Positions 6,284 through 22,406 of a DNA stretch of 64,000 nucleotides are shown here, in pieces. Both the position numbers and the translations under genes were made by a program. Numbering within the stretch: position 1 is the stretch's first letter; each line of letters begins with the position of its first letter. The notes beneath the pieces were generated by a model. The model made no database searches. It was not told the origin of the DNA and worked only from the letters and a program-made list of their open reading frames with translations. The DNA is from Gimesia aquarii (GTDB lineage Bacteria > Planctomycetota > Planctomycetia > Planctomycetales > Planctomycetaceae): the NCBI RefSeq assembly GCF_007748195.1, contig NZ_CP037920.1:3694303-3758302 (forward strand), read 5' to 3'.

Positions 6284-6792
6284 CCTGTCATTCCTTTGCT
6301 AGTAATTCAAAGAATTCTTGAGGTAGGAAAATTGTCTGATAACGATAAAGGCCCGCAGATAAGGGAATGCATAATGCAGCAAACACCTTATTTTGATATA
6401 AATGTGAATGAATATGACGCAACTCTAGACGTAGTCTGCCCAGGTGCGCATTTCACCCAATGTCAGTTTAGTCACTATAATTACCTATGTGACGACTTCA
6501 ATTCCACAATAAATAATGCATATTCTACTTTTTTTAACAATTTTACCGAATTGTTTATTTTGTACATTGTGCCACTTGATTCCGTATTTATCCTATGGTC
6601 TCCAAGATCAAATTGGTTTGGATTAAGCATTAACAACACTTGGCCAAATCTGATTTTGAAAGTCTTCTACTTCCACCACACTATGACTTTACGTTTGTAT
6701 AAAGAGTGCTTATTAGTGGGCGGATAAATGGAGGGGAATTCTCGAGCGGACTGGCTAAAGTCCTGTTGGTGTTTCTGAGTTTACGAACATGA
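6284..6792. other. Intergenic region, no gene recognised
   Basis: AT-rich DNA between the giant surface gene and a transposase remnant. It must hold the promoter of the minus-strand surface gene. A 143-codon plus-strand open frame (6296-6727) has no recognisable motif and no credible ribosome binding site. Confidence 0.5.
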
Positions 6793-7263
6793 AAGACGAT
6801 TATCACCAAACCTAAAGAGCATTCCAACTTAGTCTGGGTTTGTGAGCTAGCTCAAAATTTCATTGAGCAGTGTAGGGAGCGTGATGTTATAACGATGATG
6901 ATCATGCACGACCGGAATGGGAAACAAACAAAAAAATTCACTGAGACTTTGCAGCAATCCAGAATCAAGACAAACACTCTTCCGATAGTTTCTCCAAATC
7001 GTAAGGGAAGATGTGAGCGATTCATTGAGACAATCAAATTGGAATACTGGGCGAAGTTTATTGTTTTTGGTAAGCAGCATCTAGACTATCAGATTTGTAG
7101 TTTCACCGCGTACTATAACACTCTTCGCTCGCACACGACGCATAACTATCAGCTACCGATTCGAGAGATTCCAGACGAAGTAGAGAAATTATTAATGGGC
7201 GAGGTGCAAGTGATTGCACACATCGGTGGCTTGATAAAGTCGTTTAAACACATAGCGGCTTAA
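6793..7263 (+). pseudogene. Decayed DDE/rve-type transposase, C-terminal fragment
   Basis: An open frame after the stop at 6790-6792 encodes the C-terminal half of an integrase-core transposase. It contains IMHDRNGKQTKKF (the 'HDRD.KFT' catalytic Asp segment), then SPNRKGRCERFIETIKLEYW (the catalytic Glu region of IS3/IS481-type proteins), then AYYNTLRSHTTHNYQLP and a GGLIKSF tail. The start codon, the N-terminal DNA-binding part and the first catalytic Asp are missing, and no terminal inverted repeats were found. A short stretch near 7455-7500 (reading NQKTVRSILKEEDI in one frame) could be another scrambled transposase fragment. This is a relic insertion sequence, not an active one. Confidence 0.7.
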
Positions 7264-7525
7264 AGTGGCTCGATGCGAGATTTCAATTGTTCAATCAATG
7301 GCTTCGTAGTACGTGATGGCTGTTATTTTGTGTCCGAAAAAAGTGAGTCAGACCTTGCAACAGTTATACATACTCGAAATTGTCTACGACGTGTTTTCTG
7401 AAAAATATTATGTCTGGATACTCTTTGAACCGAACGCATTCTGACTCAAAAATATTAACCAGAAGACAGTACGGAGTATATTGAAGGAAGAAGACATTTG
7501 TATCTACTACTAAGAGCAGTTAGAA

Positions 7526-9136
7526 TTGCTGAAAAACTTTGCTTATCTTCTCAACAGATGCCGAAATTGGGAGCTAGCTTCAAACTTGAAAGTTCTGCAT
7601 GATCATATTAGACAGTCTCGAGTTTTGTGGCTGCTAATCGTAGTTTCCATTGCGCTTTTTTTGCGAATAAGCTACCTCTTTCAGGTGGCGTATTGGTTTG
7701 ATGAAAGCTTCACGCTAAAAATGGTGGAATTCCCTTTTTTGGATATGATGCATCGAAATATTACTGATGATGACAATCCGCCATTCTATTATTTGGTTCT
7801 GAAGCTTTGGGTTTTTATATTCGGAAACCTCTTAACTGCTCCTCGACTACTGAGCGTACTGTGTAGTATGGGAACTGTTGTAGGAACATACTTCTTTATT
7901 AAAGAGGCTTATCAGAAACGAACGAGCGACGAGAAACAGGTCAATACAGAGTTTGCGGCTATCTTGGCGGCGTTATTGGTCGCCCTCAGTCCTATTCATG
8001 TTGACTGGGCTCAGCAAGTGCGGATGTATTCAATGTCTCCCACTTTTGCTGTTTGGTCTAGTTATTTCTTGTTTAGAGCACTATTTAGAGAAAAGTCGGG
8101 GCCGTGGATTTGGGGATTATTTGTACTCACCTCACTCTTAGGAGCTTATACTCATTATTTCGGTCTGTTTATTGCAATGGCTCAATTTCTATTTGCCTTG
8201 AGCTATATAGCAATTCAGCGATATAAAAAATCGAGTGCCACTACTACTCTTTCTTTTCAACCACTGTTAATCTCGGGAGCTGCATTTTATTTTTGTTTCC
8301 TTCCCTGGTTGCTTGTATTTCTTGACCATCGGCAAAGAGTGACTGAAAAAATGCCGACTCCACCTTTGACCTGGGATGCTGTTGGTACAAGGCTGTGTCT
8401 TGCTTTCGACTTACAGTGGGCATGGCCTGTGACACCTGAAATGGGGATTTTTGTAGGACAGTTCTTTTTTAGCATATTCCTCCTCCTTGCTATCCGCCGT
8501 CGTCCCGCGGATTATTTTTTAATTTTGGCATCGTTGTTACCATTTTTGGCAGCGATCATTGTTTCACAGTTTATGAGAACAATTTTTGTCCCTCGTTATT
8601 TAATTGCTGCCCAATTATTTGCATTGACGGCTGTTGCTGTTGTGATTAGCGATATTCCGTGGAAAGTATTCCGATGGACTGGTGTTTTTATTGTGGTATT
8701 GTCCATGGGCTGGCTGACTAAGGAGCAATATCTCACAAGAGCCTTTGATGCTTCATTGCCGGGAATGCAGGCAGCAGTAGAATATCTTGATAACAAACGA
8801 GAAGCTGGGGACTTAGCTCTTGTTTGTAATCCGATGCTATTTACCACAATTGTTTTTTATACAAGTGACCGGAATCAGCTATACACGAAAGGGACTCCAC
8901 GTAATTACCCGTATTATCAAGGAACCGCGGTTATGCGCGATGATGAGTACTTTGACTTAAAAGAGCTAGGTGGAGCTACTAATAAACGGGTTTGGACATT
9001 TGATGCTGATCGATGGTTGGGAGGCACTTGGTCGGTTCATATGCCGTCAGGATGGCGTGAGGTGAGCCGAAGACGTTTTAAGGAATTTAATGCGGAATTC
9101 ATTATACGTTGCTATGAGCGTGATCTAGTAAAATAG
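7526..9136 (+). CDS. GT-C family membrane glycosyltransferase (PMT/ArnT-like), paralogue A
   Basis: A polytopic membrane protein of 536 residues with the layout of the PMT_2/ArnT-like GT-C superfamily, which transfers sugars from polyprenyl-phosphate donors on the outer face of the cytoplasmic membrane. After TM1, an acidic first loop reads YWFDESF and a second loop reads DDDNPPFYYLVLKLW, the DE and NPP motifs expected for donor binding and catalysis. Further conserved blocks are VALSPIHVDWAQQVRMY and YTHYFGLF, and a soluble C-terminal part ends the protein. It is a clear paralogue of the minus-strand gene at 19250-20863. The first in-frame start is TTG at 7526, and no good Shine-Dalgarno sequence is visible, so the start is uncertain. 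It is convergent with the gene ending at 9179. Acceptor and donor are unknown. Confidence 0.8.
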   Translation: MLKNFAYLLNRCRNWELASNLKVLHDHIRQSRVLWLLIVVSIALFLRISYLFQVAYWFDESFTLKMVEFPFLDMMHRNITDDDNPPFYYLVLKLWVFIFGNLLTAPRLLSVLCSMGTVVGTYFFIKEAYQKRTSDEKQVNTEFAAILAALLVALSPIHVDWAQQVRMYSMSPTFAVWSSYFLFRALFREKSGPWIWGLFVLTSLLGAYTHYFGLFIAMAQFLFALSYIAIQRYKKSSATTTLSFQPLLISGAAFYFCFLPWLLVFLDHRQRVTEKMPTPPLTWDAVGTRLCLAFDLQWAWPVTPEMGIFVGQFFFSIFLLLAIRRRPADYFLILASLLPFLAAIIVSQFMRTIFVPRYLIAAQLFALTAVAVVISDIPWKVFRWTGVFIVVLSMGWLTKEQYLTRAFDASLPGMQAAVEYLDNKREAGDLALVCNPMLFTTIVFYTSDRNQLYTKGTPRNYPYYQGTAVMRDDEYFDLKELGGATNKRVWTFDADRWLGGTWSVHMPSGWREVSRRRFKEFNAEFIIRCYERDLVK

Positions 9137-9178
9137 AGGCGATGATGGAGTTTTAATCTTTGCCTCATGGAAAAGCAT

Positions 9179-11140
9179 TTATGGGCTCGGAGTCGTTTCA
9201 CAGATGACCCGAAAACCAAGATAGCGGTTGGATTTCCAAGGAGGAAGGATCGGGTAATTAATCCTGCAAAGTTCGCCGATGTAAATCCAATCGCTTCCTC
9301 TCAATACTTTAAGAAATCCTTCTTGAGGACCTTGAGGATTTTTTTTCGGAGATCGGCTATAATAGGTGCGATCAAACCAGTCTGCACACCATTCCCAAAC
9401 ATTTCCTCTCATATCATAAAGACCAAATTCATTTGGAGCATATGTTCCTACAGCAGAAATGGGTAGGGGGGCTACACCAGCATTTTCACCTGATTGAACA
9501 TATTTTCGCTTGGCAAAGGTCCAATCATAGGGCGTTGAACGCCCGGCTCGGCAAGCATATTCCCATTCAGCTTCTGTTGGCAATCGATATCGACGTTTGG
9601 CAGCACGTTCTTCAGGAAGATTACTGAGCCGTTGACAGAACTGTTCCGCATCGTACCAGGTTACTCTCTCCACAGGAAAATTTCCTGGTTGTAATTCTCC
9701 TTGGGCTGTTTGATGAAAGCTAGGATTATTTCCCATAACGGATTCGAAGGCCTGTTGCGTGACTTCATGCTGTCCCATCCAAACGTAGTTCGTAATTTGA
9801 ACCAGATGGGTTGGACTTTCAGGAGGAGCAGGAGAGCTATTACCAGTATCAGGTATACCCATCTGAAATTCTCCAGGAGGAAGAACAACAAAACTCATAT
9901 TTAGAGAGTTTTTGAATATGTCACCAGCCTTCAATTCTTTTATTTGACCGATGCTGAATTTAGCAACGGCATCTATAGAAGGTTCTAAGTGATTCAGTCG
10001 CTGTTCAAAATTATCAGCTAGAATCTCGAAAGGTGTGTCTCGTGCGTGCATGACATGCCACAGGCCACGATCCACTCGATCATGAACGAATCGAACAGCA
10101 CCATCTAAGAACAGTATGTTGACACCATCCTTGTGCATACTTCGTGCAGTGGCTTGATCATTCCGATCAATGTAGTGTGTGCAAGGCATCTTTGCCTTAG
10201 TCAATGCTTCTTTTCCAATTGTTGCGTGTAATTTTCCACATCCCAGCAGGTCGTCGGCACGATCCCATTGATTGTTAGGGCCTCCTGCATCCCCAGAGAT
10301 ACCATGTGCAGAAGTGATACTGCCACCAATCTGTCCTAATGCCCACACTCCTCGTGGATCTAATGGATGAATCCCAGCTCTCACTTCTTCAATCGCGACA
10401 AGCGTTGATTGGCCATTTGTGAAATCATCCATTGAAAACGCCCGATTCACACCAGCGATTCCAGTACCGACATATTGAAAATGACGATTTTCATCGTTGG
10501 CAATAATTTTAACCCCTTCACCTGCTGGATGCGAAGATGTACCAATTTGTGGGCGATGGCATTGTGTTCCACCATTTATTGCGTAATTTCCTCGAGCAAA
10601 TTGAACCTGAGGAGGAATGTCCGGATCTAACTCAAAGCGATAAAGATTATTTTGATGGTTATAGATATCAGTCGGACATGACATTTCGGTGAGTGAAGTA
10701 GTACGTAACATCTGATTTTCATCAGAGCCGATGGAGTGGGATGAATCAAATGTGTCCGCTAAATCTTTCCTATCAAGATAAGGTAAGAGCAAAAGAGCCC
10801 AGTTTTCATGTGTTATTAAATCGACTCGACGATTTTGATTGAGCATCATCGAATGAAAACGACCTGGATTCCAGACTGCTGCTGGAGGTAGGAATTGAAA
10901 TGTTTCATGGTATTGTCGAAGGCCTATTCCCAAATTACGTAGATGATCTTTACAGACTGTACTACGTGCACTCTCTGTTGATGAGAGAATTGCTGGAATG
11001 GAAAGGGCTGCGGTAATTATGATAAGAAAGATGATAACAAGTAGCTCGATGCGACTGATACCAGACCTAAAACATACCTGTTTAGAGGCAGAAGCCAAAA
11101 AACAATTTTTTTCAAAACGCGTAACATGCATGTTTTTCAT
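9179..11140 (-). CDS. Hybrid DUF1559 prepilin-like + formylglycine-generating-enzyme-like (FGE-sulfatase) protein
   Basis: A 653-residue two-domain protein. Residues about 28-385 are DUF1559: a degenerate prepilin-type N-terminus (SGISRIELLVII, then a hydrophobic helix), the C-K-D-H-L-R-N-L-G segment, and the DUF1559 end motif VNILFLDGAVRFV. Residues about 412-650 are an FGE-sulfatase (SUMF1-like) domain with the hallmarks FVVLPPGEFQMG, RLPTEAEWEYACRAG, GLYDMRGNVWEWCADW and VLRGSDW. I do not see the two active-site cysteines of true formylglycine generators in the final segment, so binding or structural use of this fold is more likely than catalysis. Its ATG (11138-11140) overlaps the stop of the giant EF-hand gene by four bases (ATGA), which implies translational coupling. 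DUF1559-FGE fusions are, as far as I recall, uncommon. Confidence 0.85.
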   Translation of the reverse strand: MKNMHVTRFEKNCFLASASKQVCFRSGISRIELLVIIFLIIITAALSIPAILSSTESARSTVCKDHLRNLGIGLRQYHETFQFLPPAAVWNPGRFHSMMLNQNRRVDLITHENWALLLLPYLDRKDLADTFDSSHSIGSDENQMLRTTSLTEMSCPTDIYNHQNNLYRFELDPDIPPQVQFARGNYAINGGTQCHRPQIGTSSHPAGEGVKIIANDENRHFQYVGTGIAGVNRAFSMDDFTNGQSTLVAIEEVRAGIHPLDPRGVWALGQIGGSITSAHGISGDAGGPNNQWDRADDLLGCGKLHATIGKEALTKAKMPCTHYIDRNDQATARSMHKDGVNILFLDGAVRFVHDRVDRGLWHVMHARDTPFEILADNFEQRLNHLEPSIDAVAKFSIGQIKELKAGDIFKNSLNMSFVVLPPGEFQMGIPDTGNSSPAPPESPTHLVQITNYVWMGQHEVTQQAFESVMGNNPSFHQTAQGELQPGNFPVERVTWYDAEQFCQRLSNLPEERAAKRRYRLPTEAEWEYACRAGRSTPYDWTFAKRKYVQSGENAGVAPLPISAVGTYAPNEFGLYDMRGNVWEWCADWFDRTYYSRSPKKNPQGPQEGFLKVLRGSDWIYIGELCRINYPILPPWKSNRYLGFRVICETTPSP

Positions 11141-14100
11141 CCTGCTTTACGTCGCATAAAATAAAAGGCCACTCCGATTAACAGAACTATATTAAGCGTC
11201 ATAATGACTGGGAATAGCCACTTTGAACCATCATCAGCGGTTGTTCTTCCCACCGCTCGACGATGGCGTTCAGCAATTTTGGCTGCTGCCTGCCGAGATT
11301 GTAAGAATTCTTTGTAGTCAAGTGAATTGTCTTTATTTCGATCGTCATTCATAAACTTATCTTCTGCTCTTGCTTGACGAATCTGATAACGTTGATACTC
11401 GAGAGAATTCTTTTTTTCAGGTGCTTTATCAGTGAAAACTTCTGTAAATGTAAGCTTTCCGTTTTTATCTTTATCTGCAACCTGAAAAAATATTTCTGGT
11501 GATATTTTGGCAGGATCGTAACGAAAATCAAACTCACTCAATTCCAACTGGTTGTTCTGATTTCGGTCAAAACGACTGAACAATTCCCAAGCCAGGCCGA
11601 TGAGTTGTGGAGAGTCTTCCTGATAGAATTCCTTCCAGGAAAGAGTCCCATTGTTATCTAGGTCTCTTCTGCCATACACGCGTAGTGTGACATAATTGCA
11701 GCCAAGTGGAGATAAACGGAACTCACGCAGGGAATATTTCCCATCCTTATTTTCATCAAATGCTGGTAAGGCCTGAGACAAAAGTAATTCCGTCGCACCA
11801 TTTGATCCAATTTTTAGTATTTCTTCCGGGCTCAGAAAACCATCCAGATCTTTATCGCTATTCAGAAAGAAGCTGAATTCATCGATATTCGTTGTAGGGG
11901 ATGTGGTCAGTTCTGCGTGTGTCAGAAATCCATCTTGATCGGCGTCCATCCCGGTAAACAAAGACTGCACATACTCTTTAGGGCGTCGAATAGAGGGTAG
12001 ATACTCCTCTTTTGATAGCCGATGGTCACCGTCTTTGTCTGTTGGATTGATATAAGAACGATATAGCACTAGACCATTTGGTGCTCTCAATGGAAATCCA
12101 CTTAGATGTTTCATCCCATAAGCCAAAGCTAGTAACTGCTCCGCCTCTTTGTGTGTTACCTGACCATTCTGATCGGTATCCCAAACCTTAAACTCCAAAT
12201 CGGCTAACGGAGTCAACTGCTTCTTTAAATTGGCCTGGGGCCACTCGCTCTGAGAGAGCTGACCATCTTTATTTCGATCGGCGGTTTTGTGCAAAGCTTT
12301 CCATTTTTGCTGAGCTATTTCAGCGAGATCGGCGACAGGATCAGGGATCATACCCCGTTCTGCGGCAGAAAACAGGCCGGGTAATGCTTTGTACTCTTCT
12401 TGTGTCAGTTGACCATTCCCATCAAAATCGACGACATTAAAATTCCGTTTTGCTAATTCGGGCTTTGTGGAAGCAACTAAGGGGAGGTATTCTTCCAACG
12501 TCAGTTCTCCATCGGAATTTTTGTCAGAAGTAGCAAAAGCTAATTTCGGTGATATTTTTGCTGGATTATATTGAAACTCAAACTCATTTGGATCCAGCTG
12601 ACCATCCTGATTGCGATCAAATCGGCGAAACAGCTCCCAGGCCAAACCGATGACCTGTGGGGAAGGTTCTTGATAGAATTCTTGCCAGGAGAGTTTTCCG
12701 TCATGGTCCAAATCTGTTCTACCATACACGCGCAACGTGACGTAATTGCAACCAACCGGGGCCAAACGGAACTCACGTAAAGAGAATTTGGCATCGCCAT
12801 CTTCGTCGAAGGCTTTTAAACCCTGAGATAAGCTCTTTCCGATTGTGCTGTTTGAACCGACTTTGAGCAACTCTTCCTCATTCAACAAACCATCTAGGTC
12901 TGTATCACTACGCAAAAAGAAATTGAATTCATCAATATTGGATAGAGAAGATGTAGCAAGTTCTGCATAGGTAAGAAATTCATCTTGATCCGCATCCAGT
13001 TTGGTAAATTGTGCCTGAACTTTTTCTTTGGGCCAGCGAATGGAAGGTAAATATTCCGATTTTGAGAGCCGATGATCGCCATCTTTGTCTGCCCCTTTAA
13101 TATAATAACGGTAGAGTACCAATCCATTAGTAGCCCTTAAAGGAAAGCCATTCACTTGCTGCATTCCATAGGCAATAGCAATGAGTTTGTCTGCCTCCTT
13201 GCGCGAGACCTGTCCGTTCTGATCTGCATCCCAAACTGTAAATTTGACATCCGCCAGGGGCGTCAATTGCTTCTGTAATTCGGCTTTTGGCCATTCCGCT
13301 TCTGAAAGCTGGTCGTCAGAATTCTGATCGGCAGCTTTGTAAAGAGCCTGCCATGTTTGCTGGGCTGCATTAGCTAACTCTTCGACTGGATCGGGAATTG
13401 TACCTCGTCTCTCGGCAGGAAGTAGACCTGGCAGTGCTTTATACTCTTCCAATGAGAGTCGATCATTCTTATCAAAGTCTACGACATTAAAATTTCGTTT
13501 TGCCAACTGTGGTTTTGTACTAGCGACTAAGGGGAGATACTCTTCCAGGGTTAACTCACCATCTGAGTTTTTATCTCTGAAAGCAAAGGCTTTCTTCGGT
13601 GAGAGTTTTGTGGGATCGACACGGAACTCAAACTCGCTCAGATCTAGTTGGCCATTTTGGTCACGATCAAAACGACGAAATAGTTCCCAGGCCAGACCGA
13701 TGACCTGGGGTGAAGGTTCTTGATAGAATTCCTGCCAGGAGAGTTGCCCGTCGTGATCCTGATCTGTTCTGCCATACACGTGCAAAGTGACGTAATTACA
13801 ACCGACTGGCGCCAAACGGAACTCACGTAATGAAAATTTGCCATCGCCATCCTCATCGAAAGCTGGCAAAGCTTGAGATACACGCGTGCCAGTTGCGCCA
13901 TTTGAATTCACTCTGGGCAATTCTGCCGGGCTTACAAGTCCATCCAAGTCTTTGTCACTATTCAGAAAGAACTTCAATTCATCGATATTTGTTGTGTCGG
14001 AAATGGTCATTTCCTGGTAACTCAGAAATCCATTCTGGTCGGTATCCATTTTTGTAAACTCTGCTTGAACCTGTTCTTTGGGTCGACGTATGGAAGGCAA

Positions 14101-17100
14101 ATACTCCTCTTTTGAGAACTGATGATCGTCGTCCTTGTCTGTCGGATTGATATAGGATCGGTAAAGTACCAAACCATTGCTGGCTCTTAATGGAAACCCA
14201 TTGAGATGTTTCATCCCATAAGCCACAGCAATTAACTGTTCCGCTTCTTTTTGAGTGACTTGGCCGTTCTGATTTGCATCCCAGATTGAAAACTTCACAT
14301 CTGCCAGAGGTGTCAGCTGTTTCTGTAGTTCAACTAGGGGCCATTCCTTTTGCGAGAGTTGTCCGTCAGCATTTTGATCCGCTGTTTTCTGTATAGCTTG
14401 CCATGTTTGTTGGGCCGTGGTGGCCAGATCTGCGACAGGATCAGGGACGGTTCCCCGTTCTGTTACCGAAAACAGTCCGGGTAGTGCTTTGTATTCTTCC
14501 AATGATAATTGACTATTCCGATCAAAGTCGACGACATTAAAATTCCGTTTTGCCAACTGTGGTTTTATGCTAGCAACTAAAGGCAGATATTCTTCCAGGG
14601 TCAACTCACCATCAGAGTTTTTGTCTCTGAATGTAAAGGCTTTTTCGGGTGAAAATTTTGTGGGATCCACGCGGAACTCAAACTCATTCAGTTCCAACTG
14701 GCCATTCTGATTGTGATCAAAGTGGCGAAACAACTCCCAGGCCAGACCGATGACTTGGGGAGAAGGCTCTTGATAGAATTCCTCCCAGGAGAGCATACCA
14801 TCATGGTTTTCATCTTTCCGGTCATATACATGCAAAGTAACATAACTGCAGCCAACTGGTGACAGGCGGAACTCATGTAAAGAGAATTTCCCATCGCCAT
14901 CGTTGTCGAAGGCTTTCAAACCCTGAGACAAACGTAATTCCGTCACACCATTTAAACCGGCTTTGAGTAATTCCGCTGAACTTAAGAGTCCATCTAAATC
15001 TTTGTCAAAACTCAAAAAGAAATTCAATTCATCAATATTCGTTGTGCTTGATGTGCTCAGTTCCTGATAAGTCAAAAACCCATTCTTGTCGGCATCCATT
15101 TTAGTGAACAGAGCTTGTACTTGTTGTTTAGGTCTTCGAATAGAAGGTAGGTATTCCTCTATCGAGAGTTGGTTATCTCCATCTTTATCAGTACGATGAA
15201 TATAAGAGCGGTAGAGCACTAATCCATTGGGAGCTCTCAAAGGAAACCCGTGCAGATGTTTCATTCCGTAAGCAACAGCCACCAGTTGTTCTGCTTCTTC
15301 ATGAGAAACTTGTCCATCCTGATCAGTGTCCCAGACCGAAAACTTGAGATCTACCAGAGGAGGTAGTTGTTTCTGTAATTCGTCTTGCGGCCATTCTTCT
15401 TCTGAGAGTAGACCATCAGTGTTCTGATCGGCAGCTTTGTGTATTGCTTTCCATTTTTTCTGGGCTGTGGTGGCCAGATCTGCGACAGGATCAGGGACGG
15501 CCCCCCGTTCTGTTACCGAAAACAGTCCAGGCAGTGTTTTGTATTCTTCCAGTGACAGTTGACCATTTCGGTCAAAGTCGACGACTTTAAAATTCCGTTC
15601 CGCCAACTGAGGTTTTGTGCTAGCGACTAAGGGCAGATATTCTTTGAGTGCTAATTGACCATCAGAGTTTTTGTCACTGAAAGTAAAAGCCTTTTCAGGT
15701 GAAAGTTTTGTGGGATCCACGCGAAACTCAAATTCACTCAGTTCCAGTTGATTGTTTTGATTGCGATCAAAGCGACGAAATAATTCCCAAGCCAGGCCGA
15801 TAACTTCAGGAGAGTCTTCTATGTAAAATTCTTTCCAAGAAAGTGCTGCGTCATGATTTAGATCTGTTCTACCATAAATACGCAAAGTAACATAACTGCA
15901 TCCAATTGGGGCAAGACGGAATTCACGTAAAGAGAGTTGGCCATCATCATTTTCATCAAACGCTGCAAAGCCTTGAGGGAGGCGTGAATCGACGACGTCA
16001 TTCGAATTGATTTTGAGTAATTCTTCCGCACTTAATAAACCATCCAGGTCTTTGTCAGTATTTAAAAAGTAGCTAAATTCATCGATATTTGTTGTGTTAG
16101 ATTTAGTCAATTCCTGGTAATTCAAGAAGCCATCTTTATCCGCGTCCATTTTTGTAAATTCTGCTTGAACCTGTTTTTTGGGACGGCGTATGGAAGGTAG
16201 GTACTCTTCTTCCGAGAGCCGGTAATCGTTATCTTTATCCGTCGGTTGGATGTAGGAACGATAAAGTACCAAACCATTGGTGGCTCGAAGTGGTGCGCCG
16301 TTTGTTTCACGCATTCCATATGCAACGGCAATCAATTGAGCAGCTTCTTTACTGGTGACTTGACCGTTCTGGTCAGCATCCCAATCTGTGAACTTCACAT
16401 CGGCTAGTGGAGTCAATTGTTTGTGTAATTCTTTTTGCGGCCATTCAGCCTGTGAGAGTTGACCATCTTTATTCTGATCGGCTGCCTTCTGAAGTACATC
16501 CCATTTTTGTTGAACTGTAGATGCTAATTCCGCGATGGGATCAGGAATCGCTCCACGCTCTGCCACAGGGAACAGACCAGGTAGTGCTTTGAACTCTTCC
16601 ATCGACAATTGACCATTCCCATTAAAGTCGACGACATTAAAATTCCGTTTTGCTAACTGTGGCTTCGTGGAAGCGACTAAAGGGAGATACTCTTCTAATG
16701 ACAGTTCTCCATCGGAATTTTTGTCCCAGAGAGTAAAAGCTTTTTCTGGAGTGAGCTTGGAAGAATCAATTCGAAATTCAAACTCGTTCAGTTCCAATTG
16801 ACCATTCTGATTGCGATCAAAGCGACGGAACAACTCCCAAGCCAGACCGATGACCTGGGGAGAAGGTTCTTGATAGAATTCCTCCCAGGAAAGTACTGCG
16901 TCATGATCTAAGTCGTTTTTGTCATACACATGTAACGTGATATAACTACAACCGACCGGTGCCAGACGGAATTCACGTAAAGAAAATTTCCCATCACCAT
17001 CTTCGTCGAAGGCTTTCAATCCCTGAGACAAACGTGATTCAGTCACACCATTCAGACCGGCTTTGAGTAATTCTGCTGAACTTAAAAGTCCATCTAAATC

Positions 17101-19116
17101 TTTGTCAAAACTCAAAAAAAATCTCAGTTCATCAATGTTAGAAAGGGGGGACATGGCTAGCTCCTGATAAGTCAGAAAACCATCTTGGTCTGCATCAAGT
17201 ATTTTGAACTGAGTTTGTGTCTGTTTTTCTGACCAACTACTGGAAGGCCGGTATTCGTCTTTTGAGAGCCGGTGATCCCCATTTTTATCAGATCGTCTAA
17301 TAAATGAGCGATAAATCACACGTCCATTCGGAGTTCTCAAGGGGGCTCCTGTGACATGTCGCATTCCATAGGCGACGGCCATCAACTGCGCGGCCTCCTT
17401 TTGGGTAACTTGACCATCTTGGTCTGCATCCCAGACTTTAAACTTTACGTTCGCTAGAGGAGTCAGTTGTTTTTGCAATTCAGCCTGGGGCCATTCGGCC
17501 GCTGAGAGTTGACCATCATTGTTTTGATCGGCTGTCTTTTGAAGTACATCCCATTTTTGCTGAGCTGCGGTTACTAATTCCGCGATGGGATCCGGGATCG
17601 TGCTACGTTTTTCCAGAGGTAACAGGTCGGGTAGTGTCTTGAACTCTTCAAGTGACAATTGACCATTGCCGTCAAAATCAACGACGTTAAAATTTCGCTT
17701 CTCTAGTTGTAGTTTTTTTGATTCTACAAGGGCCAAATATTCTTCCAGTGTGAGTGCTCCATCGGCGTTTTTATCTCGGAAAGTAAAGGCTTTTTGGGGT
17801 GAGAGTTTTGTGGGTTCGATCTGAAATTCAATCTCACTGGTTTCTAGCTTGCCGCTTTGATTGCGATCAAAGCGACGAAATAATTCCCAAGCCAGGCCGA
17901 TAACTTCGGGAGAGTCTTCTATGTAAAATTCTTTCCAAGAAAGTGCTGCGTCATGATCTAGATCTGTTCTACCATAAATTCGCAAGGTAACATAACTGCA
18001 TCCGATTGGTGCCAGACGAAACTCGCGCAAATTCAGCTTTCCATCACGGTCTTTGTCAAACGCTGCAAAGCCTTGAGGCAGACGTGATTTCACTGAATCA
18101 TTCGAATTGACTTTGAGTAATTCTTCCGCACTTAATAAACCATCCAGGTCTTTGTCAGTATTTAAAAAGTAGCTAAATTCATCGATATTTGTTGTGTTAG
18201 ATTTAGTCAATTCCTGGTAATTCAAGAAGCCATCTTTATCCGCGTCCATTTTTGTAAATTCTGCTTGAACCTGTTCTTTGGGACGGCGTATGGAAGGTAG
18301 GTACTCTTCTTTCGAGAGCCGGTAATCGTTATCTTTGTCCGTCGGTTGGATGTAGGAACGATAGAGGACTAATCCATTGGTGGCTCGAAGTGGTGCGCCG
18401 TTTGTTTCACGCATTCCATATGCAACGGCAATCAATTGAGCAGCTTCTTTGCTGGTGACTTGACCGTTCTGGTCAGCATCCCAATCTGTGAACTTCACAT
18501 CGGCTAGTGGAGTCAATTGTTTTTGTAATTCTTTTTGCGGCCATTCAGCCTGTGAGAGTTGACCATCTTTATTCTGGTCGGCTGACTTCTGAAGTACATC
18601 CCATTTTTGTTGAACTGTAGATGCTAATTCCGCGATAGGATCAGGAATCGCTCCACGCTCTGCTACAGGTAACAGACCAGGTAGTGCTTTGAACTCTTCC
18701 AGAGACAGTTGACCATTCCCATTAAAGTCGACGACATTAAAATTCCGTTTTGCTAACTGTGGCTTCGTGGAAGCGACTAAAGGGAGATACTCTTTTAATG
18801 ACAGTTCTCCATCGGAATTTTTGTCATGATAGCGGAAATTATTAACTCCTGATAATTTCTGACTGGAAATTTTGGCCTTCAATTCATCGTATGACAGACT
18901 GAGATCTTCATTAGTGTCATATTGAAAGAACAATCGACGTCGTTTCTGATCTTTCGTTTTCCCGACAAGAAATTCGGTGAGAGTGATCTTACCATTGGAA
19001 TCAATATCGAGTTTCTTTGCCAACTCTCCTGGAGTAGGGTCTGCAGCGAAAACGATTCCATTGACTAAAATTAGCCCCGTAAAGAAAGAGCAAATAATTT
19101 CACTATATTTTAACAT
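11137..19116 (-). CDS. Giant membrane-anchored EF-hand repeat protein (2659 residues)
   Basis: Starts at the ATG at 19116 with a signal peptide (hydrophobic core about residues 8-24, then FAADPTPG) and ends with one transmembrane helix (WLFPVIMTLNIVLLIGVAFY) and the short basic tail MRRKAG. The body would therefore lie outside the cytoplasmic membrane. The body is almost entirely EF-hand-like 12-residue loops (for example DADKDGFLNYQE, DKDLDGLLSAEE). I count 10 per repeat unit, 7 units, plus 2 N-terminal and 2 C-terminal loops, about 74 in total. Several are non-canonical, such as DKDNDYRLSKEE with Tyr at loop position 6. Every unit carries one conserved Cys in a P-x-G-C-[SN]-Y-[VI]-T-L motif. 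The most likely activity is cooperative calcium binding at the cell surface, giving a Ca-stiffened rod or adhesin; this is an inference. It is coupled to the downstream DUF1559/FGE gene, and a GT-C glycosyltransferase gene lies 133 bp upstream. Confidence 0.9.
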   Translation of the reverse strand: MLKYSEIICSFFTGLILVNGIVFAADPTPGELAKKLDIDSNGKITLTEFLVGKTKDQKRRRLFFQYDTNEDLSLSYDELKAKISSQKLSGVNNFRYHDKNSDGELSLKEYLPLVASTKPQLAKRNFNVVDFNGNGQLSLEEFKALPGLLPVAERGAIPDPIAELASTVQQKWDVLQKSADQNKDGQLSQAEWPQKELQKQLTPLADVKFTDWDADQNGQVTSKEAAQLIAVAYGMRETNGAPLRATNGLVLYRSYIQPTDKDNDYRLSKEEYLPSIRRPKEQVQAEFTKMDADKDGFLNYQELTKSNTTNIDEFSYFLNTDKDLDGLLSAEELLKVNSNDSVKSRLPQGFAAFDKDRDGKLNLREFRLAPIGCSYVTLRIYGRTDLDHDAALSWKEFYIEDSPEVIGLAWELFRRFDRNQSGKLETSEIEFQIEPTKLSPQKAFTFRDKNADGALTLEEYLALVESKKLQLEKRNFNVVDFDGNGQLSLEEFKTLPDLLPLEKRSTIPDPIAELVTAAQQKWDVLQKTADQNNDGQLSAAEWPQAELQKQLTPLANVKFKVWDADQDGQVTQKEAAQLMAVAYGMRHVTGAPLRTPNGRVIYRSFIRRSDKNGDHRLSKDEYRPSSSWSEKQTQTQFKILDADQDGFLTYQELAMSPLSNIDELRFFLSFDKDLDGLLSSAELLKAGLNGVTESRLSQGLKAFDEDGDGKFSLREFRLAPVGCSYITLHVYDKNDLDHDAVLSWEEFYQEPSPQVIGLAWELFRRFDRNQNGQLELNEFEFRIDSSKLTPEKAFTLWDKNSDGELSLEEYLPLVASTKPQLAKRNFNVVDFNGNGQLSMEEFKALPGLFPVAERGAIPDPIAELASTVQQKWDVLQKAADQNKDGQLSQAEWPQKELHKQLTPLADVKFTDWDADQNGQVTSKEAAQLIAVAYGMRETNGAPLRATNGLVLYRSYIQPTDKDNDYRLSEEEYLPSIRRPKKQVQAEFTKMDADKDGFLNYQELTKSNTTNIDEFSYFLNTDKDLDGLLSAEELLKINSNDVVDSRLPQGFAAFDENDDGQLSLREFRLAPIGCSYVTLRIYGRTDLNHDAALSWKEFYIEDSPEVIGLAWELFRRFDRNQNNQLELSEFEFRVDPTKLSPEKAFTFSDKNSDGQLALKEYLPLVASTKPQLAERNFKVVDFDRNGQLSLEEYKTLPGLFSVTERGAVPDPVADLATTAQKKWKAIHKAADQNTDGLLSEEEWPQDELQKQLPPLVDLKFSVWDTDQDGQVSHEEAEQLVAVAYGMKHLHGFPLRAPNGLVLYRSYIHRTDKDGDNQLSIEEYLPSIRRPKQQVQALFTKMDADKNGFLTYQELSTSSTTNIDELNFFLSFDKDLDGLLSSAELLKAGLNGVTELRLSQGLKAFDNDGDGKFSLHEFRLSPVGCSYVTLHVYDRKDENHDGMLSWEEFYQEPSPQVIGLAWELFRHFDHNQNGQLELNEFEFRVDPTKFSPEKAFTFRDKNSDGELTLEEYLPLVASIKPQLAKRNFNVVDFDRNSQLSLEEYKALPGLFSVTERGTVPDPVADLATTAQQTWQAIQKTADQNADGQLSQKEWPLVELQKQLTPLADVKFSIWDANQNGQVTQKEAEQLIAVAYGMKHLNGFPLRASNGLVLYRSYINPTDKDDDHQFSKEEYLPSIRRPKEQVQAEFTKMDTDQNGFLSYQEMTISDTTNIDELKFFLNSDKDLDGLVSPAELPRVNSNGATGTRVSQALPAFDEDGDGKFSLREFRLAPVGCNYVTLHVYGRTDQDHDGQLSWQEFYQEPSPQVIGLAWELFRRFDRDQNGQLDLSEFEFRVDPTKLSPKKAFAFRDKNSDGELTLEEYLPLVASTKPQLAKRNFNVVDFDKNDRLSLEEYKALPGLLPAERRGTIPDPVEELANAAQQTWQALYKAADQNSDDQLSEAEWPKAELQKQLTPLADVKFTVWDADQNGQVSRKEADKLIAIAYGMQQVNGFPLRATNGLVLYRYYIKGADKDGDHRLSKSEYLPSIRWPKEKVQAQFTKLDADQDEFLTYAELATSSLSNIDEFNFFLRSDTDLDGLLNEEELLKVGSNSTIGKSLSQGLKAFDEDGDAKFSLREFRLAPVGCNYVTLRVYGRTDLDHDGKLSWQEFYQEPSPQVIGLAWELFRRFDRNQDGQLDPNEFEFQYNPAKISPKLAFATSDKNSDGELTLEEYLPLVASTKPELAKRNFNVVDFDGNGQLTQEEYKALPGLFSAAERGMIPDPVADLAEIAQQKWKALHKTADRNKDGQLSQSEWPQANLKKQLTPLADLEFKVWDTDQNGQVTHKEAEQLLALAYGMKHLSGFPLRAPNGLVLYRSYINPTDKDGDHRLSKEEYLPSIRRPKEYVQSLFTGMDADQDGFLTHAELTTSPTTNIDEFSFFLNSDKDLDGFLSPEEILKIGSNGATELLLSQALPAFDENKDGKYSLREFRLSPLGCNYVTLRVYGRRDLDNNGTLSWKEFYQEDSPQLIGLAWELFSRFDRNQNNQLELSEFDFRYDPAKISPEIFFQVADKDKNGKLTFTEVFTDKAPEKKNSLEYQRYQIRQARAEDKFMNDDRNKDNSLDYKEFLQSRQAAAKIAERHRRAVGRTTADDGSKWLFPVIMTLNIVLLIGVAFYFMRRKAG
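11476..18825 (-). repeat. Seven tandem 1050-bp (350-aa) coding repeats with no net length change
   Basis: Units run 18825-17776, 17775-16726, 16725-15676, 15675-14626, 14625-13576, 13575-12526 and 12525-11476, each beginning at the Asp codon of a D-K-N-x-D-G or related loop. Two independent markers repeat at exact 1050-bp spacing. The start of the PIGCSYVTL-type segment (cataactgca or variants) ends at 18000, 16950, 15900, 14850, 13800, 12750 and 11700. The segment after the D-Q-N loop ends at 18600, 17550, 16500, 15450, 14400, 13350 and 12300. A partial eighth start (DKDKNGKLTF) follows in phase at 11475. Confidence 0.92.
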
Positions 19117-19249: not shown

Positions 19250-20863
19250 TCAATTAATAGAATTAATTCGTTCGTATTGTTGTACGATAATTTGTCCATA
19301 ACGCCAGTCATTAAATCGTTCTTCAGTGATGTCCACCCAGTTTTTGGGCATCTCAACACCCTTTGGATACATTGACTTATTGCTTGCAAAAATTACCCAT
19401 GCTCGTTGTGATTCCAGATCGGCAACGGAAGTGGGGGTAAGGTGTTTTTGAGTGCTGACGACTGCTGTTCCTGTTCCAAAAACAAAGTCCCACTCTTTCG
19501 AAATTACAAACATTGGGTCACAATCTTTCAAGTAAGGACTCACGGCGACAAAGTCACGAGGGCCATTGACGAAGATTAATTCGTCTTTTTCACGCAAGGC
19601 TTCAACATAATTCACTGCAGCTTGAAAACTGGGGTAATCAATGCGTGTATCTCGCCATTGGAGCTGTTGAGCAAATTGCCAGCCTGCACTGATCAGTACA
19701 GCGGTAATTGCGATTCGAGATAAATAGCGAGATGGAATTCGAAACAGCATTACCGCTATTGCACAGAGAAAAAAAACGTGAGCAAAAAGGAAATACCAGG
19801 AAGCAATCAGGCTTTTCGAACCGGATCCTAAAAACAGAGCGAAACCAAAAGAACACAAGACGATTAACCCCAGAAATCGTTCTGATTTTCTACCAAAGAA
19901 AAATGCGATAATAGTAAGTATCGAAAATAGGATTGCTATTATCTTCGCACGATACATTTCAGTGCTGGCGGGATTCCACATAAAACCAAACATTTCAGCC
20001 ACTGATCGGGTCAAATGATCAATCCCTTGGGGACGACCCCACTCTTGCTCAAGACCTCTTTGTCTTTGTAATAGAAATTCATCCATCCAAGGCCACCATA
20101 AGATTCCAACGATGGCGACCGAGAGTAAAGGAAGCAACACGATTCGTACTTTAAGAGGTCGCTGATTCTCCTTGCTAAGCAGAGCCAGTAGAATTCTCAT
20201 TCCTCCATAAAGTCCATGCGCTGCTAAAATGAAGAAACCAAAATAGTGTGTGTAAATCAAGCCTGCTGCAAGGAATCCATAAACGATCCAATCCCGCGTT
20301 CGAAATTTGGGGGCAGTTAGTGCCCGTAATAGTGCCCAAGAAGCCCATACCCCCAGAGATGCCCCCAGAGCATACATGCGAATGGTTTGTGACCATTCGA
20401 TCTGAAAAGGGCTTAAAGCAACAAGAGCAGCCGCTAATAACGCTGGTTTCATAACTCTCGGATCAACTCTGGTGCTTTTGAAGACGTCGGCTTCAATCTC
20501 CCTTACAAGGAAAAATGTTCCCAAAATAGTTGAAAGGCCAAACATCACACTTAGTAATCTCACAGTAGCAGGAGAGCTACCTAAACCTAACGTCCAAACT
20601 TTTAATATAAAATAGAAGAGAGGTGGATGATTGTCTTGTGAGGCTCGTTGCCATTGCTCTGAGAGAGGGAAAGTCGACATCTTCCAGCAAAAACACTCAT
20701 CGAACCACAGGCTCAAGTCACCCAAACCATAAACTCGCCCGGCTGCTCCCATCATCACGACTAGCAATAATAAACAGTACCAGATGAATTGCTCTGAATA
20801 CATATCCGGCTTTGTTAATTCCGTTGAGTTGTCCTTTTCTGTTTTAAGGTTTACTCTGGACAC
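19250..20863 (-). CDS. GT-C family membrane glycosyltransferase (PMT/ArnT-like), paralogue B
   Basis: A 537-residue polytopic protein read from GTG at 20863, with an in-frame ATG slightly downstream (MYSEQF) as an alternative start. It shares the family layout with the gene at 7526-9136: first-loop acidic pair in LWFDECF, second-loop motif QDNHPPLFYFILKVW, then RLLSVMFGLSTILGTFFLV, VALSPFQIEWSQTIRMY and YTHYFGFF. A soluble C-terminal part ends in WVIFASNKSM and the final IVQQYERINSIN. By family, it would transfer a sugar from a lipid carrier to a protein or lipid outside the membrane. It lies upstream of and in the same direction as the giant EF-hand gene (133-bp gap), so co-expression is plausible. 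Glycosylation of that protein is a hypothesis, not something the sequence shows. Confidence 0.82.
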   Translation of the reverse strand: MSRVNLKTEKDNSTELTKPDMYSEQFIWYCLLLLVVMMGAAGRVYGLGDLSLWFDECFCWKMSTFPLSEQWQRASQDNHPPLFYFILKVWTLGLGSSPATVRLLSVMFGLSTILGTFFLVREIEADVFKSTRVDPRVMKPALLAAALVALSPFQIEWSQTIRMYALGASLGVWASWALLRALTAPKFRTRDWIVYGFLAAGLIYTHYFGFFILAAHGLYGGMRILLALLSKENQRPLKVRIVLLPLLSVAIVGILWWPWMDEFLLQRQRGLEQEWGRPQGIDHLTRSVAEMFGFMWNPASTEMYRAKIIAILFSILTIIAFFFGRKSERFLGLIVLCSFGFALFLGSGSKSLIASWYFLFAHVFFLCAIAVMLFRIPSRYLSRIAITAVLISAGWQFAQQLQWRDTRIDYPSFQAAVNYVEALREKDELIFVNGPRDFVAVSPYLKDCDPMFVISKEWDFVFGTGTAVVSTQKHLTPTSVADLESQRAWVIFASNKSMYPKGVEMPKNWVDITEERFNDWRYGQIIVQQYERINSIN

Positions 20864-21308: not shown

Positions 21309-22406
21309 TTATTGTTCCAAAGTCGTCCCGTTCAATGATTGGCCTTGTGGACTAGCGAGAGCAGCATACACTTTTCCATCAATGTCTTCTGAGAGGAACT
21401 GAACGTGTCCATCACAAAACCCCACATTGACTCCGCCTGCATGAAGTGAGCTTGGGAAGGGGGAAGATCCCTCTGGTTGTGAGATACCAGCATTAATTCT
21501 ACTTGAACCTGAATTCGAGCGATTATAATCGACATTTCCACTTGAACAGTTCCCATTCAAACAAGGATTTCCGATATAAAAACTGGTAAGATAAGGATTG
21601 GGAGATGCCCAATTGGAGCTCGGTTTTGCAGGGTCATATCCTGTGCGAATATTTTCTGAAATGAGCATGGTATTTGAGGCCCCATCGGTAATCCCCGCCA
21701 TTTTATGATGACGTTTCGCTCTGGTTTCCCCCTTCCATGTCTCATTAAAAAACAAACCCATCTGCTTCAGTAATTCTCGGTCTGATGGTGTACCATCACC
21801 AAGAGTTGAGGAATTACAGGTAATCCCATTTCCATTGAGATCCAATTTTCCACTCGATGGACCAACCGGGCAGTCATGAATACCAGCTATTTGAGCAGTA
21901 AAGCCCACGCCACTACTCACGACATAAGTTAAATTTCCATTGCCAACGACTTCAGTGATATCATCAGGGCAGGTTAATACAGGAATATGAGTATTTGCCA
22001 ATGGGTCATTTATGGGATTCGTATAACGTACATCAAAATCCCATTTGTTATAGATAATCGATTGGTCAATATAAGGGAGAATATCCACAACCCAGCTACG
22101 ATAAGTACCAACGGTGGCAGGAGTACCATCACCATAATAGCCACAGGCAGGGAATCGATCTGCACTATCGGTTATCTGTAGAATAGCGAGGCTGACATTG
22201 CGTAAATTGTTCAAACAATGGACTCGTCTTGCAGAATTTCGTGCTGACTGTACCGCGGGTAATGCAATCGAAATTAAAACTCCAATGATGGTAACGGAAA
22301 CCAGGAGTTCAATAATCGTGTAACCTGAAAGAGGATAATTTCTCCAAGTGATATAAGAAGACGCCGTTGTTTGATTAAACTGACGTTTTTTATACATCAT
22401 CAGCAT
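21309..22406 (-). CDS. DUF1559 prepilin-like protein
   Basis: A 365-residue protein with a type IV prepilin-like N-terminus (SGYTIIELLVSVTIIGVLIS), followed by ALPAVQSARNSARRVHCLNN, the start of DUF1559. The usual end motif appears as HAGGVNVGFCDGHVQFL. Such proteins are thought to be exported by a type II/IV-pilus-like route and to stay at the cell envelope; their role is unknown. The chosen ATG at 22406 has GGAGG five bases upstream and lies inside the last codons of the upstream GYF-domain gene (17-bp overlap), so the two are probably co-translated. A downstream ATG at 22400 is possible but has worse spacing. Confidence 0.88.
   Translation of the reverse strand: MLMMYKKRQFNQTTASSYITWRNYPLSGYTIIELLVSVTIIGVLISIALPAVQSARNSARRVHCLNNLRNVSLAILQITDSADRFPACGYYGDGTPATVGTYRSWVVDILPYIDQSIIYNKWDFDVRYTNPINDPLANTHIPVLTCPDDITEVVGNGNLTYVVSSGVGFTAQIAGIHDCPVGPSSGKLDLNGNGITCNSSTLGDGTPSDRELLKQMGLFFNETWKGETRAKRHHKMAGITDGASNTMLISENIRTGYDPAKPSSNWASPNPYLTSFYIGNPCLNGNCSSGNVDYNRSNSGSSRINAGISQPEGSSPFPSSLHAGGVNVGFCDGHVQFLSEDIDGKVYAALASPQGQSLNGTTLEQ

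Follow-up and report, generated by a model that had tools for sequence, protein, structure and literature searches.

Which genes does a giant EF-hand protein of a marine-type planctomycete work with, and why should all of its repeats have the same length? These questions arise from a 64,000-nucleotide stretch of the Gimesia aquarii genome (contig NZ_CP037920.1, positions 3,694,303 to 3,758,302; hereafter, the window), where one gene encodes a protein of 2659 residues that carries 74 EF-hand loops, most of them within seven tandem units. An original prediction, made from the DNA letters, had placed seven equal units of 350 residues at positions 11476-18825; both the coordinates and the gapless stacking were reproduced, and the strand is minus. 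The main point beyond that prediction is the gene module around the array. The array gene is a member of a conserved module that occurs in Gimesia as well as in three or more further genera of the family.

Anatomy of the array protein

Unit length is constant when the protein is aligned with itself. Within shifts of 20-1399 residues, identity peaks only at 350 (66%), 700 (69%), and 1050 (62%), and it does not exceed 13% at any of the remaining shifts. The seven units (residues 98-2547) form a gapless stack in which each is exactly 350 residues long and shares 65-93% identity with the others. Tandem Repeats Finder, whose maximum period is 500 bases, reported no repeat in the window.

About 74 loops, ten per unit, had been anticipated, and exactly 74 were counted: ten in each of the seven units, two ahead of unit 1, and two past unit 7. 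All 74 have Asp at position 1, Asp or Asn at position 3, Asp, Asn, or Ser at position 5, and Glu at position 12, and thus show the ligand pattern of the EF-hand superfamily (positions 1, 3, and 5 plus Glu or Asp at 12); Gly occupies position 6 in 55. Pfam EF-hand models match the protein far above their cut-off. Consecutive loops are 30-33 residues apart in 58 of 73 steps, and within a unit this spacing is broken only by one step of 50 (EF2-EF3) and one of 47 (EF4-EF5). The loops of the N-terminal cap lie at phases 289 and 319, near those of EF9 (287) and EF10 (319). At the other end, a partial eighth unit had been proposed to continue in phase, which holds for the first C-terminal loop and fails for the second, found at phase 44 rather than 32.

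Each unit contains a single Cys (residues 373, 723 ... 2473), and a further one, Cys9, lies inside the N-terminal hydrophobic stretch. The hydropathy profile has one such stretch at each end of the protein, which supports the proposed membrane anchoring; the signal peptide and the transmembrane helix are calls from hydropathy alone. The net charge (K+R-D-E) is -117.

A conserved gene module

In its typical form, the module comprises genes for a GYF-domain membrane protein, a DUF1559 pseudopilin, a PMT-like glycosyltransferase, the EF-hand array, and a fusion of a DUF1559 pseudopilin with a domain related to the formylglycine-generating enzyme (FGE), often together with a second glycosyltransferase (Table 1). 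In the window, the start codon of the fusion overlaps the 3′ end of the array gene by 4 bp, and the second glycosyltransferase has the same place and orientation at two other loci, L047 and L049 (L and G numbers denote loci and genomes). The order GYF protein, DUF1559 pseudopilin, glycosyltransferase, array, fusion is also found at L008, in the same genome, and at L078, in genus g40. One module of G020 and two of G330 keep this series with no GYF protein detected, while at other Gimesia loci the order is changed (the fusion precedes the array in L044, L054, and L055) or, according to Pfam, an esterase-like gene is added. Finally, seven solo arrays (L038, L059, L060, L063, L082, L084, and L088) are accompanied by the GYF protein and the DUF1559 pseudopilin only.

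Loci for this comparison were selected by a match to the array, the fusion, or the glycosyltransferase, and several reach contig ends; two solo-type arrays (G008 C44 and C45) are not among them. Of the 19 uncut array loci, counted by hand, 12 have the fusion as well as glycosyltransferase (the window, L008, L009, L044, L045, L046, L051, L054, L056, L078, L079, and L080), and the other seven have neither. This set of 19 omits loci at contig ends (L047-L050, L052, L053, and L055), L061 with its cut array, loci with a single unit, L081, which is a remnant, and two diverged arrays, L083 and L089.

The most constant partners of the array are the DUF1559 pseudopilin and the GYF membrane protein. The DUF1559 subtype of the module gave 19 matches at E 1e-60, in six of 21 genomes, all of them Gimesia; 18 lie no more than 4.5 kb from an array; the remaining one is partial, and its contig has no listed array. 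Likewise, 13 of the 15 full-length fusions found in the source genome and 58 searched relatives are within 0.7 kb of an array. These searches scored only the best candidates per genome (five for the array, 20 for the fusion, and up to 96 for DUF1559), so that arrays or partners may be missed, and related genomes do not count as independent observations.

A second kind of EF-hand array was seen at L083 (G016, 5947-14565) and L089 (G013, 4907-13524), with 1689 residues and an EF-hand protein of about 350 residues. Its neighbours are a DUF1559 pseudopilin and an FGE-domain protein encoded by a gene of its own, with no glycosyltransferase detected at these loci, so that the theme of EF-hand array, DUF1559, and FGE recurs there with different parts.

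Table 1. Array gene, its parts, and the module genes, in window coordinates
Feature	Positions	Strand	Basis
GYF_2-domain membrane protein, 395 aa	22390..23577	minus	Pfam, hydropathy
DUF1559 pseudopilin, 365 aa, prepilin N-terminus, H-X9-DG C-terminus	21309..22406	minus	Pfam, NCBIfam
PMT_2-type (GT-C) glycosyltransferase, 537 aa, upstream of array	19250..20863	minus	Pfam, hydropathy, motif
EF-hand array gene, 2659 aa, 74 EF-hand loops	11137..19116	minus	Open reading frame and translation
Putative signal peptide, residues 1-24	19045..19116	minus	Hydrophobic stretch; cleavage site placed by visual inspection
Two N-terminal cap EF loops, residues 37-48 and 67-78	18883..19008	minus	Loop scan
Unit 1, residues 98-447	17776..18825	minus	Stacked alignment
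Unit 2	16726..17775	minus	Stacked alignment
Unit 3, 92.6% identical to unit 1	15676..16725	minus	Stacked alignment
Unit 4	14626..15675	minus	Stacked alignment; modelled with unit 5
Unit 5	13576..14625	minus	Stacked alignment; modelled with unit 4
Unit 6	12526..13575	minus	Stacked alignment
Unit 7	11476..12525	minus	Stacked alignment
C-terminal cap: two EF loops, linker, putative transmembrane stretch near residue 2630, basic tail	11140..11475	minus	Loop scan, hydropathy
DUF1559 pseudopilin and FGE-sulfatase-like domain fusion, 653 aa, downstream	9179..11140	minus	Pfam, NCBIfam, alignment
Second PMT_2-type glycosyltransferase, 536 aa, convergent to module	7526..9136	plus	Pfam, motif

The partner proteins

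The module partners have the N-terminus of prepilins, with Gly at -1 and an acidic residue at +5. The DUF1559 partner scores 20.3 against TIGR02532 (cut-off 16.3) and 20.1 against N_methyl, slightly below the Pfam cut-off of 21.2, and among 14 aligned fusions, Gly at -1 is found in 13 and Glu or Asp at +5 in all. By eye, a DLNGNGITC stretch in the DUF1559 partner and in its L008 copy resembles a calcium loop.

Formylglycine-generating enzymes have two catalytic, copper-binding Cys residues. In the fusions, whose Cys positions were placed by alignment to 6muj and 2q17, the first is replaced by F, Y, or A in 14/14, while the second is kept in 14/14; activity as a formylglycine enzyme was therefore rejected. 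Since a single catalytic Cys is kept and, among solved structures, the Treponema variable protein 2y3c is the closest in sequence, this domain is more likely a binding domain than an enzyme. The AlphaFold2 model of the fusion was poor (mean predicted local distance difference test, pLDDT, of 47.6) and unusable for a fold search. Used as a query, the fusion gave 136 matches in its own genome, mostly through its DUF1559 half as judged by query range, which reflects a large paralogue family.

GT-C glycosyltransferases are polytopic and have an acidic DE motif in the first outer loop. The two enzymes of the window match PF13231 and have 8 and 9 hydrophobic windows, and among 29 related open reading frames, the strict motif is present in 21 and F/Y-D-E near the N-terminus in 28. 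A phmmer search of the glycosyltransferase against solved structures gave no match at E 0.01.

DUF1559 pseudopilins are numerous in planctomycetes. In Planctopirus limnophila they number 68, including two essential ones (PMC10632474), and Rhodopirellula baltica has 74 paralogues, of which nine respond to cold and salt shock with up-regulation within the first hour (PMC2754498).

The unit as an evolutionary domain

The repeat is an evolutionary domain of about 350 residues with ten EF-hands, which most likely form five pairs. The source genome (one 7.4 Mb contig) contains two further giant arrays, adjacent to each other, of 1802 residues with period 410 and of 3365 residues with period 353. In alignments, the ten-EF unit and an AYG(M/L) element after EF4 are common to the 350, 353, and 410 arrays, and the 410 unit is a ten-EF unit with one additional EF pair. 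Across 40 units from ten arrays, the four ligands are kept in 383/400 loops, and 12 of the 17 exceptions come from the 353 lineage, where EF2 has Asn at position 1. The Cys that had been described as conserved is less constant: it is present in all seven window units, replaced by Ala in unit 2 of a 1216-residue relative, and missing at that site from all six aligned 353 and 410 units.

At E 1e-20, a profile built from 18 units found matches in 11 of 392 sampled planctomycete genomes; these 11 all belong to the family of the source genome, and six of them, the source genome counted, to Gimesia. Single-copy relatives of the unit occur in other genera of the same family as open reading frames encoding 643-746 residues. 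None of the neighbours of the module accompanies them in G017, G019, G024, G031, or G033, and the two that were scanned with Pfam have WD40-like PD40 repeats beside their EF-hands. In G017 and G019 (L076 and L077), such relatives stand as side-by-side pairs, and the one copy scanned in each pair has EF-hands and PD40 repeats.

Constraint on unit length and growth by whole units

Selection on unit length had been suggested from the equal repeats, and it can be judged from how often gaps appear between diverged units. Units of the 350 lineage align without gaps in 15/16 pairs at 45-55% identity and 29/30 at 55-65%; for 353 units, the counts are 18/18 and 41/48. Partner proteins from the same loci have 1.05-1.72 gaps per 100 residues at 45-55%, with no gapless pair among 65 of the fusion, 6 of the glycosyltransferase, and 12 of DUF1559, and 0.32-0.50 at 55-65%, where 1/15 pairs is gapless. 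This test was run without near-identical arrays (G350, L046, L051, and L060) and arrays without a clear AYG anchor, and its bins miss 4/105 pairs of 353 units that are more than 95% identical.

The constraint is thus strong in the 350 and 353 lineages. It is not universal, because 410 units are gapped, alignments of 350 with 353 units are gapped, one array of the 410 lineage has units of 411, 410, and 347 residues, and anchor positions are spaced 349/342 in a G330 array and 342 in a G016 array. An exact period of 350 is not general either, the two paralogues in the source genome having periods of 353 and 410.

Synonymous divergence bears on the same question. Among the 21 pairs of window units, synonymous sites are saturated in 8, and another 12 show a synonymous divergence (dS) of about 1.46 or more; the sole recent pair is units 1 and 3 (dS 0.21, ratio of nonsynonymous to synonymous divergence, dN/dS, 0.20). 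In the 12 unsaturated pairs of high dS, dN/dS is 0.06-0.12. The window units are under purifying selection, and with saturation at most of their synonymous sites, their equal length is not explained by recent copying alone.

Nevertheless, copy number changes by whole units. The 353 gene of the source genome (C1:2375744-2385841, equal to L009:245-10342) has nine units and two relatives in G001 have four each. In that 353 gene, DNA identity is 100% between units 2-4 and 3-7 and 99.2% between units 1 and 3, so whole-unit copying there is recent. For units 1 and 3 of the window gene, DNA identity is 92.8%. In a tree of 20 rows, the seven window units fall into one clade (support 99/99), which indicates that amplification or homogenisation of the array took place in this lineage. 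The last unit of the 1216-residue relative clusters (99/99) with its counterparts at the end of the window gene's relatives in G004 and G008.

Predicted structure

An AlphaFold2 model of units 4-5, made with 20 alignment rows, has a mean pLDDT of 88.3 and a predicted template modelling score (pTM) of 0.70. It has EF-hand-like secondary structure throughout both units and the paired helix-loop-helix fold of EF-hands, and in a fold search its EF pairs match calmodulin lobes. The best Foldseek match is chain A of 8v3l in the Protein Data Bank, from a Tetrahymena doublet microtubule (E 1.6e-7, 829 columns, TM-score 0.13 by query length). With such a TM-score, only the EF-hand chain as a structural element carries over. 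In general, the search returned EF-hand pairs and long multi-EF chains; none of the matches listed follows the same overall path, an absence that proves nothing.

What the array may do

From these observations, we infer calcium binding, rod shape, location, glycosylation, partner contact, and the function of the array module. A signal-peptide-like N-terminus together with a C-terminal transmembrane helix and basic tail makes it most likely that the protein hangs from the cytoplasmic membrane, from where the chain might reach into the enlarged planctomycete periplasm or beyond. Calcium at most or all loops would make it a stiff, extended rod, and a calcium-stiffened rod fits the EF-hand chain of the model. 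Rod and pseudopilins could then form one calcium-dependent envelope tether or surface structure, where the lectin-like pseudopilin (the fusion, with its FGE/C-type-lectin-like domain) may bind a ligand and the glycosyltransferases, which co-occur with the fusion, may decorate either that pseudopilin or the rod. Recombination between units would set array length in whole units. We give about even chances to this explanation as a whole, that is, a calcium-loaded rod anchored in the inner membrane, working with dedicated pseudopilins and changed in length by whole units.

Several observations weigh against it. In the two-unit model, confidence is lower at equivalent sites, residues 251-260 (pLDDT 69) and 601-610 (59), which may be flexible joints instead of parts of a stiff rod; moreover, a pTM of 0.70 leaves the long-range path open, and the model covers two of seven units. 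Units of the 410 lineage have 0.63 gaps per 100 residues at 45-55% identity (2 pairs) and 0.48 at 55-65% (4/17 pairs gapless), much like partner proteins, though some of these gaps may stem from the C-terminal cap, part of which is included in the last 410 units; between 350 and 353 units there are about 1.4 gaps per 100 residues and not one gapless pair in 180. The distribution is patchy, since 5 of 17 Gimesia genomes (the source included) have no match and two have weak ones only. Nor is the module invariant. The seven arrays without fusion and glycosyltransferase mean that those two are not needed by every array, DUF1559 was undetected at L055 beside a GYF protein, and no GYF protein was detected at L056, L079, or L080. 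Two fusions stand apart from arrays, at L057 (G020, 7874-9766) and L058 (G034, 7365-9356), with no array or glycosyltransferase detected within 18 kb.

Other explanations place the weight elsewhere. Equal unit length could be a mere by-product of recent tandem duplication and gene conversion, as the single clade of window units, the DNA-identical units of the 353 gene, the similarity of window units 1 and 3, and the gaps of the 410 lineage would allow. This is weakened by the indel control and by the dS results, as 20 of the 21 window pairs are saturated or strongly diverged at synonymous sites and hardly any pair of 350 or 353 units from different genes and species shows a gap even at 45-65% identity, and we regard it as very unlikely. 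What matters might instead be the 74 sites per molecule rather than length or stiffness, in a periplasmic store or buffer of calcium. Ligand residues kept in every loop and the strong negative charge agree with such a role, which would nevertheless need no fixed unit length, whereas indels are nearly absent in two lineages; it also leaves the tight link with a single pseudopilin subtype unexplained, and sea water is rich in calcium. A buffer is accordingly improbable, in our estimate. A sensor signalling to partners in the manner of calmodulin recalls the likeness of the EF pairs to calmodulin lobes and has a frequent partner in the GYF-domain protein. Still, 74 near-equivalent sites behind a signal-peptide-like start would be an odd design for a switch, no regulator recurs as a neighbour in the annotated loci, and such signalling seems scarcely credible.

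The array may also serve only to present the lectin-like pseudopilin and glycans, as a calcium-dependent device for attachment or polysaccharide capture. The resemblance of the FGE-fold domain to the Treponema variable protein speaks for it, as do the pili-like fibres of planctomycetes that bind dextran, described in Planctopirus and Gemmata (PMC5394234). But seven of the 19 uncut loci lack both fusion and glycosyltransferases, and the unit is confined to one family among the 392 genomes, so that it is not the general planctomycete fibre; we hold a capture device to be unlikely. The same source reports press-stud-like contacts between the outer and inner membranes of planctomycetes (PMC5394234), and a rod could resemble or serve such contacts or the dextran-binding fibres.

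More broadly, and with considerable doubt, the module might represent an undescribed class of bacterial envelope structure, in which dedicated pseudopilins of a DUF1559 subtype are combined with a calcium-stiffened EF-hand rod, of a length that is a heritable multiple of a ten-EF block, and optionally with a lectin-like, glycosylated pseudopilin. If so, it would be a bacterial molecular ruler made of EF-hands, and a role would be found for a member of the DUF1559 family. This family is very large in planctomycetes, and for one of its subtypes, linkage with a giant EF-hand protein plus a lectin-like partner provides a testable context. In addition, the array offers fixed-length EF-hand blocks in a natural series, which would suit studies of how EF chains stack and the construction of calcium-responsive rods. 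Giant genes are known from the phylum Planctomycetes, and the array shows how they can lengthen and shorten by whole units.

Other features of the window

A second giant gene runs off the window at positions 2-6283 on the minus strand. At least 2094 residues long, it has LEDRTLLT near its N-terminus and, on visual inspection, repeated segments; NCBIfam gave no match at E 0.001. Positions 6895-7263 on the plus strand, which separate this gene from the other giant gene, are a likely remnant of an insertion sequence transposase (rve_3, E 1.2e-7). With Rfam at gathering thresholds, only tRNAs were found in the window.

Comparison with known systems

No described family had been recognised for the unit, and none was found here: Pfam provides only generic EF-hand models, NCBIfam names are inflated by the repeats, and the titles and abstract openings of open-licence literature held no description. 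Dockerin or thrombospondin type 3 identity would have spoken against novelty, and neither was matched among 13 Pfam families at E 0.001. The definition of lanmodulin includes Pro at loop position 2. The lanmodulin model (NF053806) scores 184 against a cut-off of 135, yet this Pro is present in 0/74 loops, and the name was rejected. The name XopAW (NF041410) was set aside as well, its 441 bits (cut-off 120) being spread over 16 stretches of repeated EF-hands; a 915-residue relative of the array scores 118.6, below the cut-off, and the hydrophobic stretches at both ends argue against a soluble type III secreted effector. That both models exceed curated cut-offs is a trap for automatic annotation.

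With regard to the module, no description of an EF-hand array combined with a pilin-like protein and a sugar-adding enzyme was found in titles, abstract openings, and passages of open-licence literature, where the reports on DUF1559 and those on EF-hands in Planctomycetes did not overlap either. Its parts have known relatives. Two partners belong to the DUF1559 family (PF07596) of planctomycete pseudopilins, and the domain of the fusion is shared with FGE-fold proteins such as the formylglycine-generating enzyme itself, PorK/GldK, and the Treponema variable protein 1, from which the fusion differs in lacking the first catalytic Cys (14/14) and in being joined to a pseudopilin.

The array itself can be set beside several EF-hand proteins. 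Chain A of 8v3l, which we take to be CFAP115-like, is also a long EF-hand chain in a structural setting; it differs in overall path and is eukaryotic and cytoplasmic, and so offers an analogy, not homology. Staphylococcal Bap is a giant surface protein with tandem repeats and calcium-sensing EF-hands (PMC7785521), although it has two EF-hand motifs, in region B, compared with 74 in the array. Calsymin (CasA) of Rhizobium etli is likewise bacterial; it is secreted, and its EF-hands are predicted in three domains (PMC10574481). The canonical 12-residue loops and the paired helix-loop-helix fold are the same as in the EF pairs of calmodulin and calcineurin B. Compared by description only, calsymin presumably has far fewer EF-hands than the array and no pseudopilin module. 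In contrast to calmodulin and calcineurin B, the array packs ten EF-hands into a domain of about 350 residues, repeats this domain seven times, and is probably exported and anchored in a membrane.
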